Shown one piece after another: positions 1,068-49,553 of a stretch of 49,553 nucleotides of DNA. The translations under genes and the position numbers were made by a program. The first letter of the stretch is position 1, and each line of letters starts with the position of its first letter. The stretch comes from a virus: the IMG/VR virus record IMGVR_UViG_3300042309_001350, positions 1 to 49,553 of that record. The stretch is one strand, 5' to 3'. Under the pieces are notes generated by a model that saw nothing but the letters and a program-made list of their open reading frames with translations, was not told where the DNA came from and did not search any database.

Positions 1068-1991
1068 ATGCCAATGGTGTTGGGCTACAACAACTCTCAC
1101 GATTTAGTTACGCAAGAGACATATTATAATTGCGGGCCTGGGTCCTGCCAGCTGGTTTTGAACGCCAGGGGCATTAATGTCACCGAGGCTGAGCTCAGCG
1201 GGGTCCTGGGGACGACTGTCAACGGCACGCCGTCGATCGACAACATCGCGAACGGGTTGAACCACTACGACCCCGAGGCGGCGTACTCGTCGATGTGGAT
1301 GACGAACGACCCGCCGACGTCCGCTGAGGTTGACTTGATGCGTGAGCGTATCCAGCGCACGGTGGCAGCTGGCAGGGGTGGCGTCGCGAATGTCGTTGTG
1401 CCTCCTGCGAATTACCCCCAGGCGGTACCGAAGAGCGACCCGAACTTGCCCGGTGCTGCGGGCGTGTCGCCCGGCTACGGCGGAGGCATTGTCTACCACT
1501 ACATCAGTTACCTCGGATTCGATGCTTCCGACGACACCGTTTTCATCGTCGATCCGGGCTTCCAACCTGCTGAATACTGGGTTACCACAACACAATTGGC
1601 GTCGATGGTGACTCCGCACGGGATCGTGTACAGCTCATCCGCGCCGGAACTCACCCCGGCGGCTCCGGCTGCACCGGCACCTGGTGCACCGGCACCTGGT
1701 GCACCGGCTCCGGCGCAGGAAGGTATCCCGACGATCATCGGCCGCAACGGTCCGAAGCCGTACACCGCGTACAGCATCGACGACAAAGTCTCACATACGG
1801 CACACGAGGTGACCATGTGGCTGCCCGGCCGCACGTTGACGGATGGTCTGCGGGAAGTCATCGACAACCCGACGCGGCCTGACACCACGTTGGGCCATGC
1901 AATCAACGCCGCCAGCCTGGCGCGCGTTAACCACCTCATCCTCACCCGTCTCGCCGCCAAGATGGGCGTCGACGTCAAGGACGTGACCTGA
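1068..1991 (+). CDS. lysA: Endolysin, C39-like cysteine peptidase (lysin A, protease part)
   Basis: A 307-residue protein with AGGAG about 10 bases before ATG. The N-terminal domain (about 10-190) has Q16 and C22 in the spacing Q-x5-C with NCGP around the cysteine, then H144 and D162, matching the Cys-His-Asp layout of C39/papain-like peptidases found at the N-terminus of actinophage lysins. A Pro/Ala/Gly linker with APGAPAPG repeats follows (about 197-215), then a C-terminal domain of about 90 residues that I do not recognise and which may bind the wall. It should cut peptide stems of peptidoglycan. The glycosidase half of a usual lysin A is absent here and may be supplied by the GH19 gene at 18608. 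The next genes are holin-like. Confidence 0.85.
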   Translation: MPMVLGYNNSHDLVTQETYYNCGPGSCQLVLNARGINVTEAELSGVLGTTVNGTPSIDNIANGLNHYDPEAAYSSMWMTNDPPTSAEVDLMRERIQRTVAAGRGGVANVVVPPANYPQAVPKSDPNLPGAAGVSPGYGGGIVYHYISYLGFDASDDTVFIVDPGFQPAEYWVTTTQLASMVTPHGIVYSSSAPELTPAAPAAPAPGAPAPGAPAPAQEGIPTIIGRNGPKPYTAYSIDDKVSHTAHEVTMWLPGRTLTDGLREVIDNPTRPDTTLGHAINAASLARVNHLILTRLAAKMGVDVKDVT

Positions 1992-6506: not shown

Positions 6507-6589
6507 GGGGCTGTGAGGGTTCGACGCGACGCCGAAATCCGCATGCGGAACCGTCGCGGACGCCGGTTCGACTCCGGCCAGCTCCACTA
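6507..6589 (+). ncRNA. Mini tmRNA-like RNA: alanine-type tRNA-like domain with a short P2 stem
   Basis: 5' GGGGCTG (6507-6513) pairs with CAGCTCC (6579-6585), seven pairs including a G-U at the third pair, the alanyl-tRNA synthetase identity element. The T-arm is GCCGG-TTCGACT-CCGGC (6562-6578), followed by A and then CTA where CCA is expected. After the acceptor strand comes GGTTCGAC, as in the stemless D-loop of tmRNA, then a stem GCGACG/CGTCGC (6526-6531 with 6552-6557) closed by CCG/CGG. There is no anticodon arm and no room for a tag-encoding messenger part (tmRNA is usually over 300 nt). It could be a TLD decoy, a functional mini-RNA or a deleted tmRNA relic. It is probably co-transcribed with the genes upstream. 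Confidence 0.6.
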
Positions 6590-6784
6590 ACCACGGGACA
6601 TCGCGGCGACCTCTGAGGCCGCCTCGGCAATGGCCGGAGAGATGAACACGGGCTTATCCACCCATGCTTCCAGCAGGTCCCGGATAACCCTGGCGACAGG
6701 AATACCCTCGGCCTCCGATTTGTCCATCACGCGATCCCACAGCTCATCGCTGATGCGAAACGTCCTCATTGCGTTCAAACTCAT
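6587..6784 (-). CDS. Ribbon-helix-helix DNA-binding protein
   Basis: The chosen start at 6784 gives 65 residues; the longer frame upstream is low-complexity and has no ribosome site. The sequence MRTFRISDELWDRVMDKSE followed by VARVIRDLLEAWVD matches the beta-strand plus two-helix plan of Arc/MetJ or CopG-like RHH repressors. An alternative start is Met6, just before RTFRIS. A TATAGT-like -10 lies a few bases upstream on this strand. Its TAG stop falls exactly on the 3' end of the tmRNA-like RNA on the other strand. Next to attP, it may regulate integration or lysogeny. No toxin gene lies beside it. Confidence 0.7.
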   Translation of the reverse strand: MSLNAMRTFRISDELWDRVMDKSEAEGIPVARVIRDLLEAWVDKPVFISPAIAEAASEVAAMSRG

Positions 6785-6911: not shown

Positions 6912-6930
6912 TTAGGGAAGCCTGACCTAA
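6912..6930. promoter_or_regulatory. DtxR/IdeR iron-box-like palindrome
   Basis: TTAGGGAAGCCTGACCTAA matches the 19-bp DtxR/IdeR consensus TTAGGTTAGSCTAACCTAA at 16 of 19 positions. It lies upstream of the RHH gene and left of attP. A better copy lies at 19808. Confidence 0.5.
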
Positions 6931-17291: not shown

Positions 17292-17323
17292 TAGGTGGAT
17301 CACCCTCTGGCGGGTGTCGGGGT

Positions 17324-17384
17324 GTAGGTTCGACAACCTACGTTTATAAATAGGGCGGCATCATGCCTCCGGGTGATGCCGCCC
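17324..17384. repeat. Operator-like palindrome plus hairpin, copy 1
   Basis: GTAGGTTCGACAACCTAC (7-bp arms, 4-bp centre) is followed by an AT-rich gap and then GGGCGGCATCA ... TGATGCCGCCC, an 11-bp inverted repeat. The block is repeated at 17422-17463 with three differences in about 42 bp. Confidence 0.6.
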
Positions 17385-17421
17385 TGAGAGGCCCCATGCC
17401 GCCGCCGGAGAGGGTGCAACT

Positions 17422-17504
17422 GTAGGTTCGACAACCTACGTTGATGAATCGGGCGGCATCATAGGTCAAAATGGAGGCATCAAACGGAGGCATGATGCCG
17501 CCCG
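17422..17504. repeat. Operator-like palindrome plus hairpin, copy 2
   Basis: The same 18-bp palindrome at 17422-17439, then CGGGCGGCATCAT (17450-17462) pairing with ATGATGCCGCCCG (17492-17504) across a loop carrying two GGAGGCAT octamers. Centre-to-centre distance from copy 1 is 98 bp. Confidence 0.6.
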
Positions 17505-17550
17505 GAAAAATGAGGGTGTAGGTGGGTCTGACCTGCACCGATAGGTTTTG

Positions 17551-17603
17551 TTCGAACATATGTACGGAGGCATGAACGGAGGCGTATCTGACCTGCACCG
17601 ATA
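17551..17603 (+). repeat. Iteron-like composite unit, left (direct)
   Basis: The order is TTCGAACATATG, GGAGGCAT, GGAGGCGTA, then TCTGACCTGCACCGATA (17587-17603; also at 17527-17543). The 28 bp at 17569-17596 are perfectly inverted at 17777-17804. Confidence 0.6.
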
Positions 17604-17639
17604 CCTTGCGACCTGGTCTTTTATACCCCTATGGAGGCA

Positions 17640-17730
17640 TACCCTCTGGAAAGTATTGAATACATAATAAATAGAGCTATATAGGGGCCTATATGGGGAG
17701 AAAATGTATAGAGAGAAAACTTTTCGACCC
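17640..17730. promoter_or_regulatory. AT-rich core with promoter-like sequence
   Basis: This is markedly AT-rich in a GC-rich genome and lies at the centre of the inverted units. TTGAAT (17656-17661), 16 bp, TATATA (17678-17683) could be a rightward promoter; CTATATAGGGGCCTATATGG is a near-palindrome. It could be a duplex-unwinding element or divergent promoters. Confidence 0.45.
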
Positions 17731-17776
17731 CTACGCCGCCCGCGGTGGCTATAAGCCCAGCTCACAGAGAATCACC

Positions 17777-17890
17777 GCAGGTCAGATACGCCTCCGTTCA
17801 TGCCGCCCAAAAATGGACAAAAGCCCAGGTCGCTAGGTATCGGTGCAGGTCAGGTACGCCTCCGTACTGATGCCTCCGCACATATGTTCG
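17777..17890 (-). repeat. Iteron-like composite units, right (inverted)
   Basis: 17777-17804 is the exact inverse of 17569-17596. 17838-17890 is an imperfect inverse of the whole left unit: TATCGGTGCAGGTCAG, then ACGCCTCCGTA, GCCTCC, CATATGTTCGAA. Symmetry centre is near 17687-17720. Confidence 0.6.
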
Positions 17891-18184
17891 AATGAGGTGT
17901 TCGAAGACGACCTCTCCCCACAGCCCCGGCGGCACCCCGGCGCCGCCAAAAAATGCACAACTTTGCCGTCCGCTCGCTTCTTTAGAATGGGAAGTGCAGT
18001 AGGACAACTGTGCCATTTTTCGGCCGGATGACTTTCTGCCTCTGGTGGTGGTGTATTACCCGCGCGGCGGCCCTGGCATAACACGGGGCGCTAACAGTTA
18101 CCTTTCTCTGCCCGTCAGGCTAGCCGGGCCGCCGCGCCACACCCCCCGCCAAACCCCCGAACACAAATCCCGCCGGAGGCGTTC

Positions 18185-18307: not shown

Positions 18308-18615
18308 GTGTCTACGCCGACGGCCATGAGGCCGTCAACCAGATGATCCACAAGGCGCGTCTCCGGCGTCACGACCACCGCGCCGCCGGTGGCAGCGACG
18401 ACGAGTTCATCGGCCGGTTGATCGAGGAGTTCGCCGAAGAGGCGAAGAACCATTCACCCGGCGCCGGTGCGGCGCATATGGCGCTCAGCGTCTACTGGAT
18501 GTCGCGATTGACTGACAAGGTGCTCGAGCTTCAGGACGCGGTCAGCATGCGCAACGACGCACTACGTACGGCGTGGGCCCGTATCGACGCCGACGAGGCG
18601 CTACGGGATGCCTAG
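18304..18615 (+). CDS. Unknown protein upstream of GH19 lysin
   Basis: 103 residues starting at ATG 18304 inside the previous stop; a longer reading to 18283 has no ribosome site. Mostly helical; begins MSVYADGHEAVNQMIHKARL, with His- and Glu-rich helices and a Met-rich middle. It overlaps the GH19 start by 8 bp. No family is recognised. Confidence 0.6.
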   Translation: MSVYADGHEAVNQMIHKARLRRHDHRAAGGSDDEFIGRLIEEFAEEAKNHSPGAGAAHMALSVYWMSRLTDKVLELQDAVSMRNDALRTAWARIDADEALRDA

Positions 18616-19294
18616 CACCTCTGGTGACTTGGCCGCCACCCTGGCTAACGCCATGGGCAACGCGCTGTCGCTGGATGAGTACCGAAGGCTTTTGCCCGGT
18701 TTTCTCGAGGGACTACGGCAGGCCGAATGCACCAATGAGCTCCGCGTCGCGCAGTACATCGCCCAGACTGGTCACGAGAGCTGTGGTTTGCTCTATCGCA
18801 CCGAGCTGGCGGACGGTTGGGCCTACGAAGGCAGGGCCGACCTGGGCAATTGTCAGCCCGGAGACGGGCCCCGGTACCGGGGTCATGGTTATCTGCAGAT
18901 CACGGGCCGGGGAAACCATCGGGCCGTGTCTGAGTGGGCGTTCTCAAAGGGCCTTGTCGCTACCCCCACCTGGTGGGAAGACAACCCCGACGACCTGGCG
19001 AGTGAGCAGTGGGCCGCCGTAGGCGCGTCCTGGTATTGGACCGTCGCCCGTCCCCAGATAAACGCGATGTGCGATTCCGGAGACGTAGAGGGTGTAACCC
19101 GCGCCATCAACGGCGGCTTGAACGGTTTTGACGATCGCGTCAATCGCTACAACCACGCTCTGCCGTTGGCGGGGCAATTCATCCCGGCCGTCCTGGAAAC
19201 CGGAGATGCTTTCATGGCGCTCAGTGATGACGAACAGCGTGAACTGTTGGACCTGTTGCGCCGCGTCGCAGCGTTGCTAGGGGCCCGACGGTGA
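18608..19294 (+). CDS. GH19 (chitinase-class) peptidoglycan glycosidase, lysin A glycosidase part
   Basis: 228 residues. Domain about 8-195: AQYIAQTGHESCGLLYRTE with catalytic Glu57 and a second acid E66, then GPRYRGHGYLQITGRGNH, and a C-terminal WYWTV...INGG segment, all hallmarks of GH19 enzymes used by phages as endolysins. The end (about 200-228, LSDDEQRELLDLLRRVAALL) is an amphipathic helix. It should cut the glycan chains of peptidoglycan. It lies far from the holin and the C39 peptidase (about 17 kb). It is followed by a coupled 19-residue hydrophobic peptide. Confidence 0.9.
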   Translation: MPSTSGDLAATLANAMGNALSLDEYRRLLPGFLEGLRQAECTNELRVAQYIAQTGHESCGLLYRTELADGWAYEGRADLGNCQPGDGPRYRGHGYLQITGRGNHRAVSEWAFSKGLVATPTWWEDNPDDLASEQWAAVGASWYWTVARPQINAMCDSGDVEGVTRAINGGLNGFDDRVNRYNHALPLAGQFIPAVLETGDAFMALSDDEQRELLDLLRRVAALLGARR

Positions 19295-19350
19295 GCACCA
19301 TCGTCCAGGTAATCACCGACTGGATTTCCGTGTTTGTGTCTGTGGGCTGA
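19291..19350 (+). CDS. 19-residue hydrophobic micropeptide between GH19 and HNH genes
   Basis: GTG 19291 overlaps the GH19 TGA (GTGA), and its TGA 19348-19350 overlaps the HNH ATG (TGATG). The sequence reads MSTIVQVITDWISVFVSVG, an amphipathic hydrophobic helix. The precise stitching to both neighbours suggests real translation, either as a membrane-active peptide (lysis helper) or just as a coupling device for HNH expression. No homologue is recognised. Confidence 0.5.
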   Translation: MSTIVQVITDWISVFVSVG

Positions 19351-19619
19351 TGCCGCAGCACCGTAACACCGCCGTCCGCGACCGGCTCCGGCGCATCATC
19401 GCCAAGGACGAGCCGCCCTGCCACCTCTGCGGGGAGTCGATCGACTACAGCCTGCCGCACAGCCACCCGCGCAGCTTTCAGGTGGATCACGTCCTACCCC
19501 GCGCCCGCGGCGGCTCCGACACTCTCGACAATTCTGCCGCCTCACACCGTTCCTGTAACAGGTCGAAGAGTGACCGCGTCCATGCTAGTGTGACTTTCGA
19601 GACCGAGCGGTCCTGGTAA
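19350..19619 (+). CDS. HNH endonuclease
   Basis: 89 residues. C24-x2-C27 and a C-terminal H66-x2-C69-N70 enclose QVDHVLPRARGGSD (D46-H47), the HNH fold with a zinc-bracing pair. In many cos phages a small HNH protein works with terminase to cut concatemers. Here it lies 4.3 kb before terminase, separated by the accessory island. Confidence 0.9.
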   Translation: MPQHRNTAVRDRLRRIIAKDEPPCHLCGESIDYSLPHSHPRSFQVDHVLPRARGGSDTLDNSAASHRSCNRSKSDRVHASVTFETERSW

Positions 19620-19711
19620 AACTCAAAATAAAAATTCGCGCATTTTTGAAAATAAAAATTCGCCCAATTTTGAATCCAGGCGAGGGTGCATACCAAATCA
19701 CGAATCGCAAC

Positions 19712-19789
19712 ACCGGAATCGAAACACCGGAATTATAATACCGGAATTATAATACACGAATTACAGTTCCGGTATTGCAATACCGGAAT
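19712..19789. repeat. ACCGGAAT repeats with 22-bp perfect palindrome
   Basis: ACCGGAAT occurs at 19712, 19726, 19740 and 19782. At 19767-19788 the half TTCCGGTATTG meets its exact inverse. TATAAT hexamers occur at 19734 and 19748. This is an AT-rich operator/promoter-like site in a GC-rich surrounding. Confidence 0.55.
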
Positions 19790-19807
19790 TATACTTCGTA
19801 TATCCCC

Positions 19808-19826
19808 TTAGGTAAGGCTAACCTAA
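19808..19826. promoter_or_regulatory. DtxR/IdeR iron box, near-perfect
   Basis: TTAGGTAAGGCTAACCTAA matches the consensus TTAGGTTAGSCTAACCTAA at 18 of 19 positions. No gene starts directly downstream on either strand, the nearest being the 20359 gene on the minus strand, so the target is unclear. Confidence 0.65.
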
Positions 19827-19845
19827 CCGCGGGGCCTGTGCGCTA

Positions 19846-20184
19846 CCGGTGCCGACATAGCCGGTGCCGCCGTTGGCGGGTGCCGACATAGCCGGTGCCG
19901 CCGTAGCGGGTGCCGGGCGTGCTTGTACATCGCCGGTGCCGGTGCCGACATAGCCGGTGCCGCCGTTGGCGGGTGCCGACATAGCCGGTGCCGCCGTAGC
20001 GGGTGCCGGGCGTGCTTGTACATCGCCGGTGCCGGTGCCGACATAGCCGGTGCCGCCGTTGGCGGGTGCCGACATAGCCGGTGCCGCCGTAGCGGGTGCC
20101 GGGCGTGCTTGTACATCGCCGGTGCCGGTGCCGACATAGCCGGTGCCGGGCGTGCTTGTACATCGCCGGTGCCGCCGTTGGCGG
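19846..20184. repeat. 93-bp tandem repeats built from GGTGCCG units
   Basis: GCTTGTACATC recurs at 19921, 20014 and 20107 (period 93) and again at 20154 after a truncated unit. Each 93-bp unit consists of three related blocks of about 31 bp starting GCCGACATAG or GCCGGGCGTG. GGTGCCG occurs many times, always on the plus strand. Confidence 0.8.
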
Positions 20185-20358
20185 GCCGGTTGCTCTGTGT
20201 CGGTGCCGGGTGCATCGGCGCCGGGGCGGCCGGGGCCTGTGTTGCCCTGTGGCGGCCTAGCCGGTGCCGGTGCTTGTGGCTATGCCCGTCGGGGCCTTTG
20301 GTGCGTCTGTGACGCTCTGAGGGGCCTTAAACGGCGTTTACCCAGCACGCGTTAAGCG

Positions 20359-20592: not shown

Positions 20593-20633
20593 AAACACCC
20601 GCCGGGGGCGTGATGCCTGTCCGGCGGGTGTTT
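20593..20633 (-). terminator. Terminator of cassette 1
   Basis: AAACACCCGCCGG pairs with CCGGCGGGTGTTT (13 pairs) and is flanked by A-runs that give TTTTT on the minus strand, 11 bp after the stop of the 20644 gene. Confidence 0.85.
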
Positions 20634-20643
20634 CCATCCTTAC

Positions 20644-20958
20644 TTATGCGGCGGTGTGCTTGAGCGCGTAGCCGTCATCGTGCAATGACCGCGCGATGCC
20701 GTACGCGACGTGCCCGGCCTTGTCGTAGCCGCCACCACCCATGATCACCGCGTGCCGGTTCCGGCTGTAGCGGTATCCCAACGCGCGCGCGACGATCCGC
20801 GAGACATCCCACGGGGCCTGTCCGGGCTTGACCTGCAACACCCCGACGTAGGCGTTATCGCCGTTGTATCCCTTGTTGACGGTGACAACGGTAGACCCGG
20901 CCGGGAAAATGCGCGCCAGGTCCTCGCGGGCGTCGGCTTTGCTGTAGTTGTTTGCCAT
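20644..20958 (-). CDS. Cassette 1: small unknown phage/plasmid orphan protein
   Basis: 104 residues with AGGAT before ATG. It begins MANNYSKADAREDL and has a C-terminal YSRNRHAVIMGGGGYDKAGH with ...HDDGYALKH at the end, a Gly-rich turn plus C-terminal pattern I recognise from uncharacterised small actinophage and plasmid proteins. Function is unknown. It is a one-gene unit with its own promoter (21012-21038), leader hairpin and terminator, oriented against the surrounding late genes, so probably expressed in the prophage. Confidence 0.7.
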   Translation of the reverse strand: MANNYSKADAREDLARIFPAGSTVVTVNKGYNGDNAYVGVLQVKPGQAPWDVSRIVARALGYRYSRNRHAVIMGGGGYDKAGHVAYGIARSLHDDGYALKHTAA

Positions 20959-20983
20959 TTCGGTTTCGATCCTTTGAACGTGT

Positions 20984-21038
20984 CCCCGCGTTTCGGGGGC
21001 TGTGACTCAAAGATATACAGAGTTTCCCGAACGCGCAA
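20984..21038 (-). promoter_or_regulatory. Cassette 1 promoter and leader hairpin
   Basis: On the minus strand TTGCGC (21033-21038), 15 bp, TATATC (21012-21017), then a CCCCG-loop-CGGGG hairpin (20984-20998) before the AGGAT ribosome site. The same layout recurs for cassettes 2 and 3. Confidence 0.65.
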
Positions 21039-21077
21039 CGAATAACGCCTAAGAAGTTTCTGAGAAACAAAAAGAAA

Positions 21078-21101
21078 CCCCGCCGGATCATTCCGGCGGG
21101 G
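21078..21101 (-). terminator. Terminator of cassette 2
   Basis: CCCCGCCGGA-TCAT-TCCGGCGGGG, followed on the minus strand by TTTCTTTTTG. It lies 22 bp after the 21123 gene and just upstream of the cassette 1 promoter. Confidence 0.85.
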
Positions 21102-21122
21102 CCTCTTGGCGGGTGTTGCGCG

Positions 21123-21923
21123 TTACGCGGCGTTAATGGCCTCTGCAACCTCTTTCGGCGTCATAATCGCGGCTAAAGTGGCAACCAACCCCGCGCGGCC
21201 GGGCTTGCCGTTTTCGGCCTCTGCTAGCACCATGGCAAGCGCGCGCACGCGGTCCCGGCTCTCTGCGGCCTCTTTGGCGGCCTTGTCCGCGGCCTTGTCC
21301 GCGGCCTCTTTGGCGCGACGGGTACGCAATTCAACCTCGTATTCGACGGCGTCGCGGGCCTCACCCCGCATGTATTCCTCATTGCCGTCAAGGCCGTAAT
21401 AGCCGTGACAGGTGTCGACGGTTTCACCGTCCTCATTCTTGGCGAACCAAAAGAACACCTCACCGGCAGACCATGCCGTCCACTCACTCAGCATCCCCGC
21501 CGGGTCTCCGTTGCCGTCATCAAGTGCGCAAAGGGCAACCCCGTACACGTCCGCGGGCTCCGCGTCGGAATCAAGTGGGCGGTAATCCTCATCGAACAGC
21601 ACCGCGCCAAACCCGGCCAGATTGAGCCACCGCAAAAACGCGGCCGGGCTGATAGTGCGCATCTCGTTCCACGTAAACTGATAATCCGTTGAGTAGTGGC
21701 GGTACTCATTACCGGTTAACAGTCGTTCCGACACGTTCAGCACGTGCCGCGGAATGTGGACGCATGTGCAATCCGTGTGCACCTTGTCGCCCTTGGTGAT
21801 AAGGGCAATACCGCACGCGTCCGGGGGGCTGTCGTAGCCGCGTTCATCCTCATACGCAATCCCGATCTCGAACACCCCGAACGGCGTTTCGATTTCATGG
21901 CTTTCAGCGATTGTTCCGTTCAT
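21123..21923 (-). CDS. Cassette 2: unknown 266-residue protein
   Basis: The chosen start, ATG 21923, has AGGAT 8 bases upstream; the frame extends to 22031 through the leader and promoter. It begins MNGTIAESHEIETPFGVFEIG, has a beta-rich first half with a CTC pair (HTDCTCVH), Asp/Glu-rich middle and Trp-rich WTAWSAGEVFFWF, then an Ala/Lys coiled-coil (about 200-245). Acidic overall. No family is recognised. Single-gene unit with own promoter and terminator. Confidence 0.7.
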   Translation of the reverse strand: MNGTIAESHEIETPFGVFEIGIAYEDERGYDSPPDACGIALITKGDKVHTDCTCVHIPRHVLNVSERLLTGNEYRHYSTDYQFTWNEMRTISPAAFLRWLNLAGFGAVLFDEDYRPLDSDAEPADVYGVALCALDDGNGDPAGMLSEWTAWSAGEVFFWFAKNEDGETVDTCHGYYGLDGNEEYMRGEARDAVEYEVELRTRRAKEAADKAADKAAKEAAESRDRVRALAMVLAEAENGKPGRAGLVATLAAIMTPKEVAEAINAA

Positions 21924-21942
21924 TTCTCGATCCTTACTCTTT

Positions 21943-21999
21943 GTCCCTGCGTTTCGGGGACTGTGACTCAAAGATATACGAACACCGCCGAACCGGCAA
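21943..21999 (-). promoter_or_regulatory. Cassette 2 promoter and leader hairpin
   Basis: TTGCCG (21994-21999), 15 bp, TATATC (21973-21978) on the minus strand, then a GTCCCTG/CGGGGAC hairpin (21943-21961). Confidence 0.65.
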
Positions 22000-22038
22000 T
22001 CAATAACGCCTAAGAAGTTTCTGAGAAACAAAAAGAAA

Positions 22039-22062
22039 CCCCGCCGGAATTGTCCGGCGGGG
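22039..22062 (-). terminator. Terminator of cassette 3
   Basis: CCCCGCCGGA-ATTG-TCCGGCGGGG, identical in stem to the cassette 2 terminator, followed on the minus strand by TTTCTTTTTG. Confidence 0.85.
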
Positions 22063-22082
22063 CCTCTTGTCGGGTGTCGGCG

Positions 22083-22436
22083 TTACGCGTCGATAAGCGC
22101 CAAAACACCATCAGCGGCGGCGTCGGGGGCCAATCCGTCGCGCTTGGCCTTGTCGATCATGGCACGCTCTGCGGCGTCGAATTCGCTAAAGTGAATCCCG
22201 ATAGCGTCGGCAACGGCGGCAAGATAATCGTTAACCGGGCAAAGGTCTGCCGCGTGATATGGGGCCGGGATGAATCCGGCGGCGTAGTTCACGTTATCCC
22301 ACCTAACCCGGTATTCCGTCGGCGCGCCCGGCGTCGGGATGACGTTGATAACGGTGCCCGCCGTTCTGGTGTCAGGCTGTCCGAACGGGTGCACGATGTA
22401 CCAGACGCGCGCGCCCGTCTTGAATTTGTTTGCCAT
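22083..22436 (-). CDS. Cassette 3: unknown 117-residue protein
   Basis: The ATG at 22436 has AAGGATCGG upstream. It begins MANKFKTGARVWYIVHPFG, contains AGTVINVIP and EYRVRWDNVNY, a small beta-barrel-like (SH3-like/KOW-like) start, and ends in a helical part. Function is not known. It shares expression signals, not protein sequence, with cassettes 1 and 2. Confidence 0.7.
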   Translation of the reverse strand: MANKFKTGARVWYIVHPFGQPDTRTAGTVINVIPTPGAPTEYRVRWDNVNYAAGFIPAPYHAADLCPVNDYLAAVADAIGIHFSEFDAAERAMIDKAKRDGLAPDAAADGVLALIDA

Positions 22437-22462
22437 GTCGTACCGATCCTTACTCTAAGTGT

Positions 22463-22518
22463 CCCCGCGTTTCGGGGCCTGTACTTAAAAGAATATACGA
22501 ACGGCGACGAACGCGCAA
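22463..22518 (-). promoter_or_regulatory. Cassette 3 promoter and leader hairpin
   Basis: TTGCGC (22513-22518), 15 bp, TATATT (22492-22497), then CCCCG-loop-CGGGG (22463-22477) on the minus strand. Confidence 0.65.
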
Positions 22519-22554
22519 CCGATACCGCCAACCAATTCCCCCGGCGTCGAATAC

Positions 22555-22673
22555 CGGTGCCGCCGTTGGCGGGCCGGTGCCGGGTCTCATCGGTGCCGCC
22601 GTTGGCGGGCCGGTGCCGGGTCTCATCGGTGCCGACTCTCTCGACGCTCTCGACGCTCTCGACGCTCTCGACG
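22555..22673. repeat. GGTGCCG direct repeats and a 9-bp tandem repeat
   Basis: A 36-bp unit at 22555-22590 is repeated exactly at 22591-22626; it contains GGTGCCGCCGTTGGCGGG, also found in the 19.8-kb repeats. Then four exact copies of CTCTCGACG (22638-22673). Confidence 0.8.
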
Positions 22674-22853: not shown

Positions 22854-22998
22854 CGGGTATACCCGTAAAAAGTGCCTCTGACCAGGGGTTTTGCAGCTAT
22901 ACCCCTAGGGGGTACCCCCCACCCAACCGGTTGGTAGGCGCCGCTCACGGCATAGGCACGTACCCCCCCTGGTATTTTTCCACGAAGCCTCCTTCGTG
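22854..22998. repeat. Cluster of short palindromes, candidate cos/packaging region
   Basis: CGGGTATACCCG (22854), TACCCC-TAG-GGGGTA (22900), CCAACCGGTTGG (22923), TACC-N6-GGTA (22961) and CACGAAG-N4-CTTCGTG (22981) lie within 145 bp upstream of the methylase and terminase genes. Inverted repeats near the small terminase gene are typical of cos regions. The cut site is not identifiable by eye. Confidence 0.4.
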
Positions 22999-23022: not shown

Positions 23023-23925
23023 ATGTCCGGAGCCCGGCTTTTTGTGTCCCCGCTGCGCTATCCAGGCGGTAAAACGCACTTCACCCCCAAGTTTGTCCGG
23101 TGGTTGGGCGATCGTTCGTTCACGGCCATTGTGGAGCCGTTTTGTGGGGGAGCGTCGATGTCATTCGGCCTGCTTAAGACAGGAATAGTCCAGCAGGCGC
23201 ATATCAGTGACGCCGACCCGTATCTGATCAATTTCTGGACCGTGGCCGCCACGGAGCCGGAGAAATTGATCGCCGACTTCATGTCCGAGCCGCTGTCGCG
23301 CGAACGCGCTGAATGGTGGCGATCCGTGGAGCCGGAAAGTCTGGACGACCAGACCCGAGCCCTACAGGCCCTCTACATCAACCGATCCAGCTTCGGCGGC
23401 TCGTTCTTCATGTCGGGGATACGGTTCCGCGCCGACAACGATGAGCGGGTCGCGCGGGGAGAAGCCCGAGAGACACTGTCGGAACTCTTCCAGCGCGAAA
23501 AAGTTGCCGCCGGTATCCGGCAGGTCGCCGAGTGGCATGGCACCGGAAGATTGACCATCTCCCACCGCGACTACACCTCTGCCGCGGCAGACGCCCCGGA
23601 CGGGTCGCTGATCTACCTTGACCCGCCCTACGTCGTGAAGGGCTCGAAGCTCTATACCCACGTCTTCAACGACCAGGACCATAAACAACTGGCCGAGACC
23701 GTCTACGCGCTGTCCGAGACGCACAGCGTCGCTGTGTCCTATGACGACCACCCGCTGGTGCGCGATCTGTACTCAGAGCCGCCGATGCTGTTCCACCACC
23801 CGTCGTGGAGCTATTGCATGACCCGCGGCGTGGGCCGCAACAGCGCCGAGCTACTCATCACCAACTTCTCCGGCGGGTCGTTCGAAAAGCAACCGACCAG
23901 AAGGACATCCCGTGGCCGACACTGA
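23023..23925 (+). CDS. DNA N6-adenine methyltransferase (Dam/D12 class)
   Basis: 300 residues, GAGG 5 bases before ATG. PLRYPGGKTHF at 10-20 (the D12-class opening), VEPFCGGASMSF at 37-48 (SAM-binding) and YLDPPY with DPPY at about 200-203 (catalytic). It should methylate adenine in a short target, probably protecting phage DNA from host restriction or marking DNA for packaging. No restriction partner is nearby. It overlaps the small terminase gene by 14 bp. Confidence 0.93.
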   Translation: MSGARLFVSPLRYPGGKTHFTPKFVRWLGDRSFTAIVEPFCGGASMSFGLLKTGIVQQAHISDADPYLINFWTVAATEPEKLIADFMSEPLSRERAEWWRSVEPESLDDQTRALQALYINRSSFGGSFFMSGIRFRADNDERVARGEARETLSELFQREKVAAGIRQVAEWHGTGRLTISHRDYTSAAADAPDGSLIYLDPPYVVKGSKLYTHVFNDQDHKQLAETVYALSETHSVAVSYDDHPLVRDLYSEPPMLFHHPSWSYCMTRGVGRNSAELLITNFSGGSFEKQPTRRTSRGRH

Positions 23926-24178
23926 GACACCCACACCGCCCGTGACGATCGGCGAGGCCGCCCGCAGCGGTGACCGCCGGGCCCTGCTGGTCGCCATGCG
24001 CGACCGGATCGCCTCCACCGTCGAGGACCCCTCATGTCCTCCGCGCGACCTCGCTGCCCTCACCCGGCGGCTCCAGGACGTCGCTAAGGAGATCGAGACC
24101 ATCGACCAACAGTCCGCCGGTGAGCACTCCGTGGTCGCCGACACCGATGACGAACCATTCGACGCAGCGACTCTCTGA
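23912..24178 (+). CDS. terS: Terminase small subunit
   Basis: 88 residues from GTG 23912 with AAGGA upstream. IGEAARSGDRRALLVAMRDR and DLAALTRRLQDVAKEIE are the helices of the short small-terminase family that precedes terL in many actinophages. It binds the packaging site and recruits the motor. It overlaps terL by 32 bp. Confidence 0.8.
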   Translation: MADTETPTPPVTIGEAARSGDRRALLVAMRDRIASTVEDPSCPPRDLAALTRRLQDVAKEIETIDQQSAGEHSVVADTDDEPFDAATL

Positions 24179-25577
24179 GGTCGCCCGCTACGTCGTCGCC
24201 CCAGAAGGGCTGACGAAGACCGGCTGGCCCGCCGTGCGCGAAACATGCGGGCGGTTGGGCTGGTCGTTCGACGGCTGGCAGGACGATGCCGGAAAGCTGC
24301 TGCTCGGCAAGCGCGGCGACGGCCTCTACGCCGCCGACCTGGTGGCCATGAGCATCCCCCGCCAGGTGGGCAAGACCTTCTTCATGGCGGCCAGCGTGTT
24401 CGCGCTGTGTCTCCTGAATCCTGGACTGACGTGCATATGGACCGCCCACCGCGTCAAGACCGCGAAAGAGACTTTTAACTCCATGGGCGGCATGGCCGCG
24501 CAGGAGAAAGTCGCCCCGCACATCAAGTCGGTCGTACGGGCCCGCGGCGACGAGGCGATCACCTTCACCAACGGCTCCCGAATCCTCTTTGGCGCCCGCG
24601 AGGCTGGCTTCGGCCGCGGCTTCACCAACGTGAGCATCCTGGTGTTCGACGAGGCGCAAATCCTTACCGAGAGCGCCCTCGAGGACATGATCGCCAGCCA
24701 GAACGTCGCGGCCAACCCGTTGACCATTCTGGCCGGTACGCCGCCGCGGCCCAGAGACCCCGGCGAAGTGTTCACCATGATCCGCCAAGACGCGTTGGCG
24801 GGGGAGAGCCAGGAGACCCTCTACATCGAGCTGAGCGCCGACGAGGGCTGCGATCTACTCGACCGCAGGCAATGGCGTAGGGCCAACCCCAGCTTCCCGC
24901 AGAGGACCCCTGAGCGGGCCATGCTGCGGATGAAGAAGAACCTCTCCGACGACAGCTTCCGCCGCGAGGCGCTGGGTGTCTGGGACGAGGTGTCGGTGCA
25001 CAAGCCACTCACCACGCCACAGCAGTGGAAGGCGATGTCCGACGTCGGCCCCACCGACAGTGCGCGCCCCTCTTCTCTCGGGGTGGATATGAGCCACGGT
25101 CGCGACATCAGCATCGCGGCCTGCTGGGTGGAGGGCGACAACGCCCATATCGAGACCGTCTGGGACGGTAGCGACCCCGCGTTGGCCGTCGAATGGCTGA
25201 CCGCCCGTGCCGGTCGCCGTATCCCCGTGGTGCTCGACGCGGCATCCCCGGCGGCATCCCTTGTGCAGGAATTGAAGTCGCGCCGGTGCAAGGTGGTCGT
25301 CACCTCGGCCACGACGATGGGCCAGGCGTGCGGGCTGCTGGAGAACCGCATCGCCACCGACACCCTGACTCACGCCGCACAGAAGAAACTCACCGACGCC
25401 ATCCTGTCGGCACGCCGCCGCCCCATCCGGGACGCGGGCGGCTGGGCACTCGACCGCAGTGACCCCACATCCCAGATATATCCGATCGTCGCAGCGACTT
25501 TGGCCCTCTTCGGAGCCACGGCCGAGTCCCGTCCCGCCGCCGCGAAGAGCACGAGAAAGGTACGGGTGCTGAGTTGA
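24147..25577 (+). CDS. terL: Terminase large subunit
   Basis: 476 residues from ATG 24147 (longer readings upstream are the out-of-frame shadow of terS). ATPase: Walker A IPRQVGKT at 70-77, Walker B ILVFDEA with D168/E169. Nuclease: LGVDMSHGRD near 313, VVLDAA and a late Asp near 445. It packages DNA into the prohead and cuts it. Complete and of normal length. Confidence 0.96.
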   Translation: MTNHSTQRLSEVARYVVAPEGLTKTGWPAVRETCGRLGWSFDGWQDDAGKLLLGKRGDGLYAADLVAMSIPRQVGKTFFMAASVFALCLLNPGLTCIWTAHRVKTAKETFNSMGGMAAQEKVAPHIKSVVRARGDEAITFTNGSRILFGAREAGFGRGFTNVSILVFDEAQILTESALEDMIASQNVAANPLTILAGTPPRPRDPGEVFTMIRQDALAGESQETLYIELSADEGCDLLDRRQWRRANPSFPQRTPERAMLRMKKNLSDDSFRREALGVWDEVSVHKPLTTPQQWKAMSDVGPTDSARPSSLGVDMSHGRDISIAACWVEGDNAHIETVWDGSDPALAVEWLTARAGRRIPVVLDAASPAASLVQELKSRRCKVVVTSATTMGQACGLLENRIATDTLTHAAQKKLTDAILSARRRPIRDAGGWALDRSDPTSQIYPIVAATLALFGATAESRPAAAKSTRKVRVLS

Positions 25578-48814: not shown

Positions 48815-49553
48815 CCATCTACGCAGACGGGGTGGCCGCACCGTTCGCGAATGGCGTCTTCGCAGAGGCCGTCTACGCGGGTGACGAGAAGGTCTGGCCC
48901 GTAGGGATCGACACGCATGTCTACACACCGCGAAGCGGTATCGGCAACGGCGGTGAGTCCGCAAACGGCCAGACGTGGTCGGCATTCATTGCTGGGCAGG
49001 GGCGGATTCTGTTTTCGCGCAACGTCGGCGGAGGCGGTGCGACCAATGAGCTGAATGTGAACACAATGTGGTTGGAGCAGATGTCGGGCACGGCAACCGG
49101 TGTTCCCACGTCGCAGATGCTGGCTGCCACTCCGGACGGGTCGAAGGTTTTCTTCACACAGAACAACCCCGGCGGCGTGATCGTCTTCGACACCGTGACC
49201 AACAAGGCTGTCGCCACGCTCGACTCTGGCGTGCCCGCGTTCGGCGTAACCGTGGCCGCAGGAAAAGTCTGGGTATCACACCGCAACGCAAAGGTGGTCA
49301 CCGTCTACGACGCGAACACGCATGCCAAGATCACGACAATCCCGGTCACCAACGGCACCGAGCAGCTGGCGGCAAACCCGCAGGAATCAGGCGTTTTTGC
49401 AGCCAGCCCGGCGGGTAAATGTGTGTACGCCATCTCAACCACGTCAAACACAATCACCAAGACGATTACTGACCCCGCCGGTGTGGGTAAGGGCATCGCG
49501 GCCAACCAGCAGGGCATCTACAGCAGCGCAGGTAATCAGGTGACTCAGCTCAA
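48811..49553 (+). CDS. Beta-propeller tail protein, 3'-truncated by contig end
   Basis: GTG 48811 overlaps the fibre stop (GTGA) and the frame is open to the contig end (about 247 residues). It begins MTIYADGVAAPFANGVFAEA, then VYAGDEKVWP, a short attachment motif as in the 31488 gene, and enters propeller blades at about residue 85. From 49049 it repeats bases 1-505 with changes in the blade sequence (for example VFVLDTAT versus VIVFDTVT). It supplies the N-terminus missing at the left contig end or is a separate paralogue. Confidence 0.85.
   Translation, partial: MTIYADGVAAPFANGVFAEAVYAGDEKVWPVGIDTHVYTPRSGIGNGGESANGQTWSAFIAGQGRILFSRNVGGGGATNELNVNTMWLEQMSGTATGVPTSQMLAATPDGSKVFFTQNNPGGVIVFDTVTNKAVATLDSGVPAFGVTVAAGKVWVSHRNAKVVTVYDANTHAKITTIPVTNGTEQLAANPQESGVFAASPAGKCVYAISTTSNTITKTITDPAGVGKGIAANQQGIYSSAGNQVTQL
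49049..49553. repeat. Terminal near-repeat, right copy
   Basis: Partner of 1-505; identical over 49049-49175 (127 bp), then about 32 differences, about half of them silent. Both matches reach exactly to a contig end. Confidence 0.9.

Follow-up and report, generated by a model that had tools for sequence, protein, structure and literature searches.

A candidate moron-like island of three single-gene units that share one repeated expression module in a temperate actinobacteriophage

Introduction

Morons are promoter-gene-terminator units that lie between the core genes of phages. Their base composition commonly differs from that of the phage, although this is not essential.

Several described systems resemble the locus analyzed here in part. 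PeSLs (Arbiol 2010, Comeau 2014) are, as PMC4503421 describes them, composite promoter-terminator motifs of T4-like phages. In the cluster K phages the SAS and ESAS repeats closely precede the starts of accessory genes that are unrelated to each other (PMC3203893). The leftward early promoter Pleft of cluster A phages lies at the right end of the genome and is repressed in lysogens (PMC5712189), and in the L2 phage Crossroads the leftward genes of the right end are early, one having its own mapped promoter (PMC6426596). Antisense single units within lytic regions are expressed lysogenically in prophages of M. abscessus (PMC8092301) and in Salmonella ST64B (PMC7067206). Mycobacterial prophage-expressed genes are usually found near the attachment site (PMC8092301, PMC6426596).

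We have analyzed a phage genome with three consecutive leftward genes, called cassettes 1 to 3, each with its own expression signals.

Results

The phage genome

The window, meaning the whole stretch of DNA that was analyzed, makes up a virus record by itself, of 49,553 bp with 64% GC. Its ends (1-505 and 49049-49553) overlap by 505 bp with 93.7% identity, so it is probably a near-complete or complete, circularly joined genome, assembled from a mixture of at least two co-existing strains. The phage is known from metagenome contigs only. Its genes for a tyrosine integrase and an Arc-like repressor, the latter within 6587-6784, show that it is temperate. The leftward early region holds a primase/polymerase and a Cas4-like exonuclease, and the morphogenesis region is of the standard siphovirus type. 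The nearest terminases are those of M. abscessus prophages (~62%) and of the Weiservirinae (cluster K), and cluster K also supplies the nearest primases (~46%). No DNA similarity to the window was found among GenBank phages and plasmids, and exact peptide seeds for relatives of the terminase large subunit (TerL) had no match in GTDB genomes. The IMG/VR contigs that carry all three cassette genes are the same phage at 100% identity.

Elsewhere in the genome the endolysin is apparently split into two genes that are far apart, at 1068-1991 (+) and 18608-19294 (+), matching columns 5-196 and 197-411 of phrog_1519 respectively. The non-coding stretch 17323-17892, which precedes the leftward early operon, contains inverted repeats of 47-76 nt that are 75-94% complementary together with a 42-bp direct repeat, and is a possible replication origin or control region.

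Three unrelated genes

The three leftward units of the original prediction, with genes at 20644, 21123 and 22083, are all present (Table 1). Their proteins had been said not to resemble each other, and when P0001, P0002 and P0003 are compared with one another the similarity is indeed not above chance. The start of the cassette 2 gene is the ATG at 21923 behind a Shine-Dalgarno (SD) sequence; a longer ORF with a TTG start, extending to 22031, would cross the promoter. At 60-65% GC, against 64% for the genome, the three genes are like the rest of the phage in composition.

Table 1. Features of the cassette region and of the genes that flank it.
Feature	Positions	Strand	Remarks
HNH endonuclease	19350-19619	+	From PHROG and relatives; core gene left of insertion
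Cassette 1 terminator	20593-20633	-	Stem unrelated to that of cassettes 2 and 3; z -6.3
Cassette 1 gene, P0001	20644-20958	-	104 aa, pI 9.6, GC3 0.85
Module copy A	20966-21116	-	Cassette 2 terminator, AT/palindrome block, promoter, leader and SD of cassette 1
Cassette 1 leader core CCCCGAAACGCGGGGACA	20981-20998	-	Hairpin 20984-20998
Cassette 1 promoter-like signal	21010-21038	-	-35 TTGCGC 21038-21033
Cassette 1 -10 options		-	TATATC 21017-21012 (15 bp) or TATCTT 21015-21010 (17 bp)
Palindrome GTTTCTGAGAAAC	21056-21068		Upstream of cassette 1 promoter
Cassette 2 intrinsic terminator	21072-21107	-	16-bp stem and T run; -30.4 kcal/mol, z -6.3
Cassette 2 gene, P0002	21123-21923	-	266 aa, pI 4.5
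Module copy B	21927-22077	-	Cassette 3 terminator, AT/palindrome block, promoter, leader and SD of cassette 2
Cassette 2 leader core CCCCGAAACGCAGGGACA	21942-21959	-	Match to core search
Cassette 2 promoter-like signal	21971-21999	-	TTGCCG; TATATC (15 bp) or TATCTT (17 bp)
Palindrome GTTTCTGAGAAAC	22017-22029		Upstream of cassette 2 promoter
Cassette 3 intrinsic terminator	22033-22068	-	Stem of cassette 2 terminator, other loop; -30.3 kcal/mol, z -6.8
Cassette 3 gene, P0003	22083-22436	-	117 aa
Partial copy C	22437-22545	-	Cassette 3 promoter and leader, without terminator or palindrome half
Cassette 3 leader core CCCCGAAACGCGGGGACA	22460-22477	-	Match to core search
Cassette 3 promoter-like signal	22490-22518	-	TTGCGC; TATATT (15 bp) or TATTCT (17 bp)
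cos site	22949-22985	+	GGCATAGGC ... CCCCCC ... TTTTTCC
D12 adenine methyltransferase, stand-alone	23023-23925	+	Between cos and terminase
Terminase large subunit	23970-25577	+	Core gene right of insertion

Alignment places P0001 as a divergent member of a widespread, uncharacterized phage family (phrog_12365-like) with the motif 'SGM..R / GCGMDMGFHLVY', which is partly degenerated here in that SGM and most of GCGMDMGFH are lost. Its relatives (80 IMG/VR loci) are found in Gordonia and Microbacterium phages, where they lie near operon starts or right ends, in cyanophages and in many uncultured phages. The AlphaFold2 model (pLDDT 84.5) had no match in the PDB at E below 0.1, and in BFVD its fold matched only uncharacterized phage proteins. 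P0002 matches phrog_6186 in PHROG (E 4e-13) and is 33% identical to gp73 of the cluster A (Benedictvirus) phage Bluefalcon (tblastn, alignment); these relatives sit in the leftward right arm of a cluster A phage. P0002 has an extra charged, helical C-terminus compared with its phrog_6186 relatives, and its structure model was discarded as too poor (pLDDT 45). P0003 is an orphan with no significant phage relative, and a DUF1918-like match to its N-terminal region is weak (E 0.012, below the Pfam cut-off). None of the three proteins matched the PADLOC defence models at E up to 1, and none has a recognizable domain in Pfam or NCBIfam.

Promoter-like signals, leaders and terminators

On the minus strand each gene is preceded by TTGC(GC/CG), 15 bp and TATAT(C/T), and then by the leader core ACAGNCCCCGAAACGCNGGGACA and AAGGATCG. 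Across both strands of the whole window the pattern TTGCGC/TTGCCG-15 bp-TATATC/T occurs at minus-strand positions 21038, 21999 and 22518 only. An alternative -10 sequence (TATCTT, TATCTT and TATTCT in cassettes 1, 2 and 3) with a spacer of 17 bp is likewise restricted to these three sites in the window. Promoter spacing is normally 17 bp, and the actinobacterial -10 element is usually TANNNT. Because the 17-bp reading has both of these properties, the sequences lead us to favor it over the 15-bp reading; the three sites of the original prediction stand, but its 15-bp spacing gives the poorer match to TANNNT. A scan with the generic sigma-70 consensus called none of the three. The palindrome GTTTCTGAGAAAC, of which the window has just two exact copies, may be an operator or an UP element.

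The leader core CCCCGAAACGCGGGGACA is found three times in the window when one mismatch is allowed, compared with a mean of 0.08 in shuffled sequences, 0 of 100 of which reached three. A profile built from these three sites scores them at 65-73 bits against -5 for the next best. The expression signals had been described as identical in all three cassettes. A promoter and leader are shared, but they are near-identical, the three leader cores lying within one mismatch. Similarly, the proposed CCCCG/CGGGG leader hairpin is there in sequence at cassettes 1 and 3, but cassette 2 reads CAGGG in place of CGGGG. The stability of the hairpins relative to shuffles (z = 0.0, -1.0 and -0.75) is no better than composition predicts, and a stable RNA element in the leader is not supported.

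All three cassettes have a terminator of their own, a stem followed by a T run. Cassettes 2 and 3 share the same 16-bp stem (z -6.3 and -6.8), in agreement with the near-identical stems originally noted. The predicted strength of these terminators indicates that each unit is insulated. A match of the BSnc120 sRNA to the cassette 2 terminator was rejected, as its score is far below the gathering cut-off.

A repeated expression module

The signals belong to a larger repeated unit. Copies A and B form a direct repeat of ~150 bp that is 84-86% identical and occupies both intergenic regions, beginning where the gene before it ends; the partial copy C is 75-79% identical to A and B. The identity between A and B is distributed in blocks. 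It is 65% at the gene end, 89% in the terminator and 100% in the 31-bp AT block with GTTTCTCAGAAAC, falls to 52% in the -35/-10 spacer, is 100% from the -10 element to the hairpin and 90% in the leader hairpin, and is 60% in the 3' part of the leader. Cassettes 1 and 3 have their first codons in common (ATGGCAAACAA, 'MAN'), the homology extending just into the genes. Given that the elements are 89-100% identical and the spacers 52-60%, we infer that the copies are old and that the signals are under selection.

The original prediction had suggested looking for other genes behind the same signals in related phages, and none came to light. A loose pattern of the module retrieved nine other IMG/VR contigs, none of them a true copy; these were rejected as unrelated hairpins from phages at 37-47% GC. 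No copy was found in 84,980 GTDB genomes or in GenBank phages.

Immediately after the cassette 1 stop, at 20633-20644, there is an SD-like sequence AGTAAGGATGGA that is similar to AGTAAGGATCGA, with which the leaders of cassettes 2 and 3 end. It may be what remains of a fourth cassette that was lost.

An insertion between HNH and cos

The cassettes had been placed against the late transcription direction between the HNH and terminase genes. Both statements hold, and their orientation is opposite to that of the lysin, HNH and structural genes, but a cos site (22949) and the D12 adenine methyltransferase gene intervene before the terminase. The methyltransferase gene was not seen in the related loci examined. 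The relatives are 80 loci recovered by their related terminases, and in many of them the same HNH gene precedes that of TerL. The cos motif occurs in at least eight relatives, either between HNH and TerL or, where the contig stops short of HNH, just upstream of TerL. Two further contigs of this phage in IMG/VR start at 22954 and 22961, as expected of a cohesive end, which supports the position of cos. The motif GGCATAGGC-N-CCCCCC-N-TTTTTCC may help to orient other contigs of this phage group.

The distance from HNH to cos is 3,330 bp in the window, compared with 47-932 bp in seven relatives (47, 61, 95, 108, 129, 365 and 932 bp in L032, L056, L099, L066, L031, L037 and L094 respectively). P0001, P0002 and P0003 had no match in 13 relatives, using a P0001 profile that finds its own genome as positive control. 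A 3.3-kb insertion at this point, with genes absent from these relatives, indicates that the block is accessory cargo and not core, which is what the original prediction had supposed; the conserved gene order and content that it named as evidence to the contrary were not seen among the 13.

Given the position of cos, the cassettes occupy the far right of the virion genome, the promoter of the nearest starting about 430 bp from cos. They are ~13 kb from the integrase. GC-rich repeats border the block, among them a 25-mer present in identical form at 20166-20190 and 22554-22578, and these repeats could have mediated its exchange.

The adjoining stretch 19620-20300 is AT-rich and non-coding. Within it are 14-bp iterons and, at 19767-19788, the perfect 22-bp palindrome TTCCGGTATTGCAATACCGGAA; after these, at 19846-20148, come 3.3 repeats of a 93-bp unit at 100% identity. 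The IdeR/DtxR iron-box consensus TTAGGTTAGGCTAACCTAA is matched at 19808-19826 (18/19) and at 6912-6930 (16/19), with 0 in 100 shuffles. The first of these sites overlaps the promoter-like TTCGTATATC common to cassettes 2 and 3, here directed rightward into the non-coding tandem repeat, and the second stands ahead of the gene for the Arc-like repressor.

A mini-tmRNA ahead of the integrase

An 83-nt RNA at 6507-6589 (+), ~660 bp ahead of the integrase start, aligns from one end to the other with the Rfam tmRNA model, at 67 bits against a cut-off of 47 (E 4e-24). It is without the ~300-nt mRNA-like and pseudoknot part, and is thus a mini-tmRNA with the tRNA-like domain only. ARAGORN made no call for it. 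Streptomyces phage pSt2308 has a similar RNA within a tRNA cluster (L192:1501-1581, 61 bits). The two differ in bases, but pairing is kept in the T arm and the long stem, and they have the same inner GAAA-CCGCA-GCGGAAC. Full-length relatives were found in LuckySocke and GiJojo, and partial matches in BRock and Alone3. The mini-tmRNA possibly overlaps attP, although attP would normally carry only the 3' end. It may be more novel than the three-cassette finding.

Discussion

Lysogenic or early expression

The explanation that we prefer, with doubt and confidence about equally weighted, is that this is a moron-like accessory island of a temperate actinobacteriophage, in which three independent single-gene units reuse one expression module. 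The module would comprise the terminator of the prior gene, an AT-rich palindrome block, a sigma-A-type promoter, a short conserved leader and an SD sequence, with a different gene attached each time. Host RNA polymerase would then transcribe each gene apart from the lytic operons, so that the genes could be on in the prophage. The products may be small proteins that interact with the host or modulate competitors. The shared module might let cassettes duplicate or be exchanged by homologous recombination, as the PeSL motifs do among T4-like phages. We prefer this explanation because there is one promoter and one terminator for each gene, and the lysogenic antisense units of M. abscessus and Salmonella prophages argue for it as well; a moron-like role in the lysogen is plausible. 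Against it we count the position beside cos, ~13 kb from the integrase and not beside attP, the P0002 relatives in an early-lytic cluster A right arm, and the failure of the generic promoter scan to call the sites. Exchange of cassettes is hypothetical, since no other phage turned up with this module or with its genes reordered.

The strongest competitor, which we consider a real if lesser possibility, is that these are early-lytic genes of the right end. Leftward promoters by cos would fire as the DNA enters the cell and be off in the lysogen, and the products would be small host-takeover proteins. In the virion genome the cassettes, which run leftward, come last on the right and adjoin cos directly, just as Pleft of cluster A is at the right end and repressed in lysogens (PMC5712189) and the leftward right-end genes of Crossroads are early (PMC6426596). 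The relatives of P0002 in a cluster A right arm, and those of P0001 near operon starts and right ends, point the same way. However, early genes usually form long operons, and a promoter and terminator for every gene is more typical of morons. Moreover, at 8.9-17 kb there is a distinct leftward early operon, which lacks the cassette signals, and the candidate operator palindrome is common to just two of the three promoters.

In a bolder proposal the module serves as a dedicated adaptor for the co-regulated expression of interchangeable cargo, perhaps acting via GTTTCTGAGAAAC or the conserved 5' leader, which would constitute a PeSL-like system of separate origin with three new effectors directed at host or phage. 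We regard this as unlikely. Slightly more doubtful still is the specific suggestion, raised in the original prediction, that the genes encode prophage anti-phage defence or superinfection exclusion. Autonomous antisense single-gene units at a variable accessory site of a temperate phage would suit such a function, but the proteins lack both a PADLOC match and a recognizable domain, the cassettes are not close to attP, and the presence of the P0001 family in many phages favors a role in phage infection over defence of the lysogen; the suggestion is not upheld. It is highly improbable that an intergenic region was recently duplicated in tandem and that the module has no particular role in regulation, for although copies A and B are adjacent and alike, even similarity would be expected in place of the blocks observed, and the third copy keeps the same elements at 75-79% identity.

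If the moron-like explanation is confirmed, temperate actinophages, like T4-like phages, could standardize accessory genes by means of one terminator-promoter-leader unit, and such a repeat could flag uncharacterized cargo genes by sequence. For the present, the more limited gain is a mapped accessory site adjoining cos and, in it, three genes that are candidate effectors.

Comparison with known systems

Cluster K supplies some of the nearest primases and terminases, and its SAS and ESAS also repeat before accessory genes (PMC3203893). These are SD-overlapping motifs, whereas the repeat here is a promoter, leader and terminator. The SAS 13-mer GGGATAGGAGCCC gave no match with up to two mismatches, and the cluster K system was rejected on its absence. 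With Pleft of cluster A and with the L2 phages the locus shares leftward transcription beside cos at the right end, and the right arms of cluster A phages hold relatives of P0002. It differs from their right-end early genes in having three separately terminated units.

The likeness to PeSLs is that a repeated intergenic unit couples the terminator of one small gene with the promoter of the following one, and that the genes which separate the copies are unrelated. PeSLs belong to T4-like myoviruses with phage early promoters and are marked by shuffling of genes between related phages. Here the phage is a temperate, 64% GC actinophage with a tyrosine integrase, the promoter is of sigma-A type, there are two full copies only, and there was no sign of shuffling in the other genomes. 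To judge from its sequence the module would work like a T4 PeSL but is not a member of that group, because this phage has no relation to the T4-like ones and shuffling was not observed; we claim no shared ancestry.

The locus also resembles the morons. The island is an insertion between genes that are adjacent in relatives, where these have almost nothing; it runs against late transcription, and every gene has a promoter-like signal and its own terminator. The three promoter-like sites are conserved and unique in the window, but a generic scan calls none of them. Unlike morons, the genes stand three in a row on one duplicated expression module, have the base composition of the phage and are not next to attP. 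The three-cassette arrangement is real, is absent from relatives, and is a variation on a known theme.
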